A DNA stretch of 8,056 bases from Candidatus Latescibacterota bacterium (GTDB taxonomy: Bacteria > JAAXHH01 > JACQVL01), in assembly GCA_016209865.1 (NCBI GenBank), contig JACQVL010000297.1, positions 1 to 8,056 on the forward strand, in the 5' to 3' direction. Numbering within the stretch: the first letter of the stretch is position 1; the number at the start of each line of letters is the position of its first letter. The notes below the pieces were generated by a model. It saw nothing but the letters and a program-made list of their open reading frames with translations, ran no database searches and had not been told where the DNA came from. The position numbers and the translations under genes were made by a program. This document shows positions 3,331 to 8,056 of the stretch, piece by piece.

Positions 3331-3390
3331 CTGTAGGGGCGGATCTTGTATTCGCCCCGATGCGGGCGATCACAAGGATCGCCCCTACAG
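3331..3390. repeat. Large imperfect palindrome of the GTAGGGGCG...CGCCCCTAC type
   Basis: Two 27-nt arms (3331-3357 and 3364-3390) are reverse complements at 22 of 27 positions around a 6-nt loop. The outer 11 nt, CTGTAGGGGCG against CGCCCCTACAG, are perfect. It begins 7 nt after the maf stop and would form a long hairpin in RNA or single-stranded DNA. Such GTAGGGGCGA-type palindromes recur between genes in many environmental bacteria and behave like REP/MITE-style dispersed repeats. No T-run follows, so if it ends transcription it does so without a classic intrinsic terminator. Confidence 0.8.
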
Positions 3391-7346: not shown

Positions 7347-7369
7347 GGTTTCATCGAGCTGGATGAACC
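7347..7369. terminator. Stem-loop at the convergent junction, possible weak bidirectional terminator
   Basis: GGTTTCATC (7347-7355) can pair with GATGAACC (7362-7369) around a 6-nt loop with one bulged base. It spans the end of the minus-strand gene and lies between two converging genes. T-rich stretches follow on both sides (TATTTTCTT on the + strand, GGTTTTCC on the - strand) but are broken and distant, so activity is doubtful. Confidence 0.25.
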
Positions 7370-7917
7370 GAGCTACGGGTATTTTCTTGGCCTGTTCGCG
7401 CTGTCTTCAGCGTCTCCTTGATCTGCCGGACAAAATCTTCCAGTCGCACCGTTTGAGGCCCCTGACCCTTCTCAGGCGGGAGACGCACCACCTTTCTCCC
7501 CTTCGCGTCGGTCTCAACCGGGACTTTCCCCTGAAAGAGTCCGAGAACGGTGTGTTCGCCGGTCGGCCGCGTCCAGAGAAACACCACCGCTTCCTCACCC
7601 ACCTCGAAGGTCGCGGCCTCCGACATCACCATCTCTATCTTCCCAACCGTTCCGCCCGGCTGCGTGATGACAACTGTCCGTCCGATATCCCCCTTCAGGC
7701 TTTCCTCGACAGCAACCGTAATCCTGGTCTTGATGCCATCGGCGGTCGACTCACTCACTTTGCCAGTCACCTTGCCGACCACGATGATGCTGGCCTTGAG
7801 CGTGAGTTCCTCCAGGCTCATCTTGACGACTGAAGCCACGACCGCCGTCCAGTCCCCCCCAAGCAGGAGCACGACCATCAGCCCGGCCCGGCAGATTCTC
7901 CGCAGCCATCCACCCAT
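7351..7917 (-). CDS. Secreted protein, matrixin-neighbour family, possible OB-fold/TIMP-like domain
   Basis: A 188-residue protein of unassigned function. Residues 1-28 form a signal peptide: Arg-rich start (RRICR), hydrophobic core GLMVVLLLG, likely cleavage after VVA at 28. The mature part has no cysteine. Its core reads as alternating beta strands: MSLEELTLKASIIVVGKV (33-50), ITVAVEESLKG (66-76), VVITQPGG (82-89), FEVGEEAVVFLW (104-115) and VLGLFQGKVPV (124-134), then a charged helical tail near 159-175. The order 'A-IVV-GKV ... V-E--LKG ... F--GEE-V-F' recalls NTR/TIMP-like OB folds, by eye only. It starts 36 nt downstream of a matrixin protease gene on the same strand, and I recall similar secreted proteins beside matrixins in other genomes. 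An inhibitor, chaperone or envelope partner are options. The 3' half shows no frame damage. Confidence 0.82.
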   Translation of the reverse strand: MGGWLRRICRAGLMVVLLLGGDWTAVVASVVKMSLEELTLKASIIVVGKVTGKVSESTADGIKTRITVAVEESLKGDIGRTVVITQPGGTVGKIEMVMSEAATFEVGEEAVVFLWTRPTGEHTVLGLFQGKVPVETDAKGRKVVRLPPEKGQGPQTVRLEDFVRQIKETLKTARTGQENTRSSVHPAR

Positions 7918-7953
7918 ATCATCGCCACCCTCTCCACCATTCAGGGGAGGGCA

Positions 7954-8056
7954 TCACTTGTACAGTGCCTTAATCCCCGCGATATCCCCTGTATTCAGAG
8001 TTCTCTTCTTCGTCTCGCCAGCCTGGGCAAACCGGTACATCGTCTCTTCAGTGCAA
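7954..8056 (-). CDS. C-terminal end of a matrixin-type zinc metalloprotease (partial)
   Basis: The minus-strand frame entering from the right edge gives 33 residues, CTEETMYRFAQAGETKKRTL then NTGDIAGIKALYK, before a TGA at 7954-7956. It is too short to appear as an ordinary open frame but fits the end of bacterial matrixins (peptidase M10A). There, a Met-turn-like 'E-TMY' is followed by GET-KRTL and 'DI-GI--LY' in the last helix. The HExxHxxGxxH zinc site would lie upstream, outside the window, so activity cannot be judged. Matrixins of this kind are usually exported. The gene is probably first in an operon with the secreted protein 36 nt downstream. Confidence rests on this C-terminal signature only. 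Confidence 0.68.
   Translation of the reverse strand, partial: CTEETMYRFAQAGETKKRTLNTGDIAGIKALYK

Follow-up and report, generated by a model that had tools for sequence, protein, structure and literature searches.

Gene Pair at the End of the Window

The locus described here raises the question of whether a bacterial metalloprotease of the matrixin family is encoded together with a protein that inhibits it. The window, i.e., the whole stretch of 8,056 nt that was analyzed, represents one whole contig (G000:C267) of an incomplete 3.75-Mb genome, and two minus-strand genes were found at its end. One of these genes (ORF 7917–7351) encodes a 188-aa protein, P0002, with a predicted signal peptide; the sole cysteine of P0002 (C9) is located inside this signal peptide, and the mature protein is thus cysteine-free. 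The likeliest cleavage site separates VVA from S29, while an alternative site separates AVV from A28. The other gene is present in the window only as a minus-strand reading frame, CTEETMYRFAQAGETKKRTLNTGDIAGIKALYK, with its stop at 7954; the protein end encoded by the last 103 bases of the window is ETMYRFAQAGETKKRTLNTGDIAGIKALYK, and the window-encoded CTEETMYRFAQAGETKKRTLNTGDIAGIKALYK showed a weak match (E = 0.036) to the last 29 positions of PF00413. The features of this region are as follows.

7351–7917, minus strand: coding sequence of the predicted NTR/TIMP-fold protein, 188 aa including the signal peptide (ORF; model with pLDDT 94.4 and pTM 0.86; matches to NTR structures)
7834–7917, minus strand: predicted signal peptide, residues 1–28 (sequence; the family has an AxA site at about the same place)
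7354–7833, minus strand: predicted mature NTR domain and C-terminal helix, residues 29–188 (model and fold matches)
7822–7836, minus strand: mature N-terminal segment A28-S29-V30-V31-K32, the proposed cleft-entering edge (TIMP register and family register)
7651–7656, minus strand: near-invariant Gly-Gly, G88-G89 (95–97% conserved; profile alignments to TIMP-like proteins)
7576–7599, minus strand: family signature GEEAVVFL, residues 107–114 (family alignment)
7372–7443, minus strand: predicted C-terminal helix, residues 159–182 (secondary structure of the model)
7918–7953, minus strand: 36-nt spacer from the matrixin stop to the start of the NTR gene, in an apparent operon (sequence)
7954–8056, minus strand: matrixin C-terminus, Met-turn TMY to DIAGIKALYK (remainder on contig C181, locus L003:6135–7004)

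The remainder of the protease gene was found on another contig of the same genome, C181, the end of which overlaps the window end by 135 bp with 99% identity (one mismatch); the join between the two contigs was deduced from this overlap, not from reads. The gene on C181 encodes a 289-aa matrixin (P0003) that contains HEIGHAAGLAH, an intact HExxHxxGxxH site, as well as the Met-turn TMY, and that matches PF00413 with 44 bits (cut-off 24). No other confident matrixin was found in this genome. The start of this protein is lipobox-like, predicting a lipoprotein. A preliminary description of the window had placed a matrixin C-terminus 36 nt before a same-strand gene for a cysteine-free protein with a signal peptide, and both the ORFs and the gene on C181 bear out this arrangement. 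That the matrixin neighbor might be a spurious match or a truncated, nonfunctional gene was ruled out, as the full gene is present on C181.

Predicted Fold of the Mature Protein

Residues 29–188 of P0002 were modeled with AlphaFold2, using 18 alignment rows from the window and related loci. The model of the mature protein presented a mean pLDDT of 94.4 and a pTM of 0.86, and its strands include E16-30, E33-47, E53-59, and E81-88, which coincide with the strand stretches named in the preliminary description. In a Foldseek search against the PDB, the only matches under E 0.001 were four agrin NtA entries (best E = 5e-4), two of which are titled as structurally related to N-TIMP-1; these were followed by TIMP-2, the NTR domain of PCOLCE, and TIMP-1. 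VIA-align placed N-TIMP-3 from the TACE complex on top (Z = 11.7, 116 residues, 2.5 Å), followed by NtA and by TIMP-1 from the MT1-MMP complex (Z = 11.1), with complement NTR domains at Z = 8–9. The top PDB matches thus represent agrin NtA, TIMPs, PCOLCE, the C345C domains of C3 and C4, and meteorin, with Z of about 8–11.7, while a structure search of BFVD with the P0002 model gave no significant match. In most TIMP alignments, residue 1 of the model falls on TIMP residue 2. Mature P0002 is therefore predicted, with high confidence of the model, to adopt an NTR/TIMP fold, with the five-stranded barrel and terminal helices typical of NTR domains. This is in line with the OB/NTR-like fold that had been proposed, as the first ranks of both PDB comparisons are taken by agrin NtA and TIMPs; of the earlier "TIMP/potempin-like" likeness, these matches retain specifically the TIMP/agrin-NtA (NTR) branch, the potempins lying outside the comparison.

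We propose, with a probability of roughly 0.6, that P0002 is an exported NTR-fold protein and a candidate cognate inhibitor of the matrixin encoded in the same operon. Non-inhibitory roles also exist for NTR folds (e.g., agrin NtA and PCPE), which is a point against this proposal, and the protein might instead be a targeting or substrate-binding subunit that anchors the protease or makes it more active toward a substrate in the matrix or at the surface. Consistent with such a role, agrin NtA, a laminin-binding domain, tops the Foldseek list, with the PCOLCE NTR domain near the top, and fusions with multi-domain PKD/TIG proteases occur among the relatives described below. However, the P0002 family is specifically tied to matrixins, the one family of proteases with known NTR/TIMP inhibitors, and its predicted mature N-terminus appears to be kept at about the TIMP distance, which would be needless in a binding module; we thus regard a targeting role as quite unlikely and retain the inhibitor as the preferred reading.

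Relation to TIMPs at the Profile Level

Neither P0002 nor its family matched PF00965, the Pfam model of the TIMPs, HMMER profiles of the family matched no PDB chain, and hhalign of the family with TIMP-3 alone was not significant (score 5.8). A link was obtained through a set of bacterial proteins with a mature Cys-x-Cys start (bacterial CxC proteins), some of which score above the PF00965 cut-off. The profile of these proteins matched TIMP-1 from residue 1 at E = 5e-8, as well as TIMP-3, TIMP-2, and, weakly, agrin, and hhalign gave a probability of 94–97% for the relation between the P0002 family and the bacterial CxC/TIMP-like profile. A three-sequence TIMP-like profile aligned to the family with a score of 28.7, as compared to at most 4.5 for 60 decoys and 8.2 for reversed sequences. 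The P0002 family hence has a detectable profile link to a known NTR family and, by this sequence comparison, is remotely related to bacterial and animal TIMPs. Because the direct comparison with TIMP-3 was not significant, the bacterial CxC proteins are needed as a bridge, and, because HMMER found no PDB chain, the link to TIMPs rests on profile–profile comparison together with the fold.

The bacterial CxC proteins (L221, L222, and L224–L240) were found in 16 of 45 genomes of one phylum. No matrixin was identified in the short flanks of the CxC protein genes that were examined. As TIMP homologs in bacteria, these proteins merit separate study.

Spread and Conservation of the Family

As a lone query, P0002 found no relatives in the genome-contig or plasmid collections, and it showed no match to Pfam, NCBIfam, or PDB; viral contigs searched for the family yielded nothing. 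A first search among sampled relative genomes identified homologs in 14 of 96, nearly all outside the window's own order. With the family profile, homologs were found in 64 of 384 sampled relative genomes and in 178 of 195 genomes of one phylum, probably Myxococcota. Hits in named organisms include Tectomicrobia, Deltaproteobacteria, Acidobacteria, Gemmatimonadetes, Latescibacterota, Planctomycetota, Handelsmanbacteria, and a Bacillota MAG. No Pfam model covers the family, which, as judged from its sequences, is new.

The most conserved positions (P0002 numbering) are T64, K75-G76, G88-G89, F113-L114, and G130; a 10-row diverse alignment was too variable to yield a scan pattern. Cysteines are absent from 78 of 128 aligned domains. 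Residues 1–3 of the mature protein are not strictly conserved across the family, which counts against the inhibitor reading.

Linkage of the Family to Matrixins

Genomic neighborhoods were assessed for 115 homolog loci with 120 domains, where a domain was considered linked if it was fused in the same frame to a matrixin or separated from it by a gap of at most 120 nt. By this definition, 101 of the 120 domains are linked to a matrixin; 70 are located upstream of a same-strand matrixin, 13 are located downstream, as in the window, and 18 share one reading frame with the matrixin (13 N-terminal and 5 C-terminal). Two further domains lie about 1.8 kb from a matrixin, while 17 have none nearby, including two at contig ends (L126 and L164); these 17 count against the inhibitor reading. 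A 4-nt overlap represents the commonest spacing (25 of 54 domain-first gaps). Within 2.5 kb of a domain, 107 matrixin ORFs were found in 563 kb scanned, of which 106 are on the same strand as the domain, as compared to two in the 597 kb scanned beyond this distance. HExxH is present in 99 of the 101 linked partners, and 14 of 18 loci from named organisms are adjacent or fused. The association between domain and matrixin is thus far above chance.

The matrixin model used to count neighbors had been seeded from such neighbors; the co-occurrence test was therefore repeated with Pfam's own PF00413, which was present in 46 of 64 genomes with the domain and in 55 of 320 genomes without it (Fisher P = 2e-17, odds ratio 12.3), and 47 of 119 best PF00413 matches were located within 4 kb of a domain. 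Circularity of the linkage through the neighbor-seeded model was rejected, as this independent search agrees; an artefact of one clade was also rejected, as the linkage is seen across many phyla. The suggestion in the preliminary description that a matrixin neighborhood would recur among homologs was borne out across these phyla. None of the three outcomes named there as refuting was seen, as the predicted fold is NTR/TIMP-like, the neighborhood recurs, and the adjoining frame has its HExxHxxGxxH site. The wider claim of a widespread bacterial pair of a protease with an inhibitor or chaperone is well supported with regard to the pair, the inhibitor function being putative.

The gene arrangements are also consistent with the NTR protein being a secretion or folding chaperone, or a removable pro-domain acting in trans, that would bind the nascent catalytic domain in the periplasm, aid its folding, and then be degraded. 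The domain-first order in most loci and the 4-nt overlaps suggest co-translation and 1:1 supply, the N-terminal fusions resemble pro-domains, and there is scant space for a propeptide within the partner proteases themselves. However, 13 domains come after the matrixin, the fold predicted for the NTR protein belongs to an established family of metalloprotease inhibitors, and this explanation is only partly distinct from the preferred one, as chaperone pro-domains usually inhibit too; we consider a chaperone role unlikely. A target outside the operon is far less probable still: here the pairing would be conserved, but the domain would act on other metalloproteases, such as those of competitors or prey, and the cell's own matrixin would be resistant. 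While the high frequency of the domain in the Myxococcota-like phylum, which has many predatory members, and the copies located away from any matrixin would fit such a target, cis fusions and tight operon coupling favor the cognate enzyme, as assumed in the inhibitor reading.

Several loci depart from the common arrangement. In L187 and L121, the partner matrixin-like ORFs lack HExxH beside an intact NTR domain and may represent inactivated proteases; NCBIfam includes an "inactivated metalloprotease" model. In L033, L143, and L148, a short matrixin is immediately followed by a single protein with two tandem NTR domains. The matrixin-less homologs of L160 and L166 are located near other HExxH proteins (HEMTH and HEMGH), perhaps a different protease partner. 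Another unlinked homolog (L021 / L195) is found within a cluster of ketoacyl-synthase, ketoreductase, and dehydratase-like genes of the aryl-polyene or fatty-acid type, and its genome has a second, matrixin-linked copy.

N-Terminus and Putative Mode of Inhibition

In TIMP–MMP structures, TIMP residue 1 binds the zinc through its alpha-amino and carbonyl groups, not through a thiol. The absence of a cysteine therefore does not disqualify P0002 from a TIMP mode, since these ligands are main-chain groups. A -3/-1 rule, which is a simple predictor, yielded a cleavage site in 117 members. In 58 of them, the core Ile/Val falls on mature residue 18, the position of V18 in TIMP-3, and in 21, P0002 included, it falls on mature residue 17. 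The conclusion in the preliminary description that a missing Cys1 would force another mode of inhibition was thus too strong, given the main-chain ligands and a register in which most homologs with a predicted site match TIMP-3 or are one residue short. Of the 82 members with register 17–19, 41 have Thr and 11 have Ser as mature residue 1, while Thr, Val, and Ser are frequent at residue 2. A review of TIMPs stresses Cys1 in describing inhibition by a processed N-terminus placed on the zinc (PMC9409782).

We put forward a TIMP-like mode of the putative inhibition tentatively, at slightly less than even odds. Removal of the signal peptide would free the N-terminus (Thr-Thr or Ser/Thr-Val in many relatives), which, along with the neighboring Gly-Gly loop, would form a TIMP-like edge entering the active-site cleft; the alpha-amino and carbonyl groups of residue 1 would cap the zinc, and residue 2 would be placed at S1′. 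G88-G89 of P0002 sits about where TIMPs have the Cys70-containing loop beside residue 1. A matrixin that appears to be nearly without propeptide could thereby be held inactive in the periplasm or at the surface for as long as it retains its partner and the complex has not been exported, and in fused proteins the same domain would act in cis. Two findings count against this reading: the likeliest cleavage site of P0002 leaves an N-terminus one residue shorter than that of TIMPs, and some C-terminally fused or tandem second copies (L147, L168, L033, L143, and L148) have no free N-terminus at the domain. In L114, L130, and L112, a C-terminal NTR domain in one frame is preceded by a signal-like hydrophobic stretch and an AxA-type site, as though the domain still required a free N-terminus; L112 has no matrixin match or HExxH ahead of its NTR domain.

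In MMPs, the catalytic domain takes up about 120 residues ahead of HExxH, the propeptide comprises about 80 residues, and the first residue of the active enzyme is Phe or Tyr. In the partner matrixins, the median distance from the predicted cleavage site to HExxH is 145 residues, which leaves little room for an MMP-type propeptide, and the +1 residue is Phe, Tyr, or Trp in 41 of 87, as compared to a background of about 9%. From these sequences we infer that most partner matrixins are essentially active once signal peptidase has cut them and depend on another component for silencing. Unlike most partner proteases, the window's matrixin has about 90 extra N-terminal residues before the catalytic domain; these could represent a pro-region of its own, a point against the inhibitor reading.

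Comparison with Known Systems

The family shares with TIMPs (PF00965, MEROPS I35) the predicted NTR/OB N-terminal fold and, in many members with a predicted cleavage site, perhaps a similar spacing between mature N-terminus and strand 1, and, with the animal MMP–TIMP pair, a matrixin partner along with the remote profile similarity through bacterial CxC proteins. Unlike TIMPs, P0002 lacks Cys1-x-Cys3, disulfides, the TIMP C-terminal domain, and a PF00965 match, and its family, in contrast to animal TIMPs, is bacterial and is co-encoded with or fused to one protease; P0002 is TIMP-like, not a TIMP. The bacterial CxC proteins have the same fold register and a signal peptide, in addition to the profile relation of 94–97%, but, unlike the P0002 family, keep Cys1-x-Cys3 and further conserved cysteines.

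With agrin NtA and other NTR domains (PF03146 and PF01759), which include the top Foldseek matches, P0002 shares a predicted NTR fold with a C-terminal helix; unlike these families, the P0002 family has no significant Pfam match. Agrin NtA, a laminin-binding domain, has no known role in protease inhibition. Among bacterial proteins, the closest precedent in function would be the potempins of Tannerella forsythia, small secreted OB-fold inhibitors encoded beside their target metalloproteases (e.g., PotA with the matrixin karilysin); we know of potempins from this one oral species. By description only, the P0002 family is set apart from them by its presence in many phyla, its matrixin fusions, and its TIMP profile link.

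In the open literature searched, no earlier report of a bacterial TIMP/NTR–matrixin pair was found. NCBIfam names an MXAN_2677/2678 protease family; a paper on myxosortase makes no mention of the MXAN_2677/2678 gene, metalloproteases, or operons (PMC11980579). A recent phylogenomic survey traced TIMPs back to the eumetazoan ancestor as their point of origin (PMC10755359). The pairs described here suggest that an animal-type combination of protease and inhibitor has a bacterial counterpart. An origin of MMP–TIMP style control before animals, with the animal pair descended or acquired from bacterial stock, would be compatible with the pairs in many bacterial phyla and the cis fusions, and is offered as a doubtful, speculative extension. 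As a Pfam-absent, matrixin-tied NTR/TIMP-fold family, these proteins represent a candidate older form of the MMP–TIMP system and a tractable bacterial model; the proposed role predicts how bacterial matrixins apparently without propeptide stay silent, and the domain may provide a new cysteine-free scaffold for metalloprotease inhibitors.

The natural fusion L210, modeled as one chain, presented a good NTR half, a poor matrixin half, and a pTM of 0.47, and the docking of the two halves in this model is not reliable.

Other Features of the Window and Its Flanks

Adjacent genes encoding a geranylgeranyl-reductase-family protein and a UbiA prenyltransferase were found at 216–2237 of the window. 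Their best NCBIfam models are archaeal (digeranylgeranylglycerophospholipid reductase and GGGP geranylgeranyltransferase type), with scores below the equivalog cut-offs; based on these matches, an archaeal-type isoprenoid lipid step in a bacterium is possible. Upstream of the matrixin, a perfect palindrome, CTGTAGGGGCGCAGAATTCTGCGCCCCTACAG, is located at L003:5769–5800 and represents the single exact short-loop copy in the genome; a longer-looped relative of this palindrome is found in the intergenic region at about 3332–3390 of the window.
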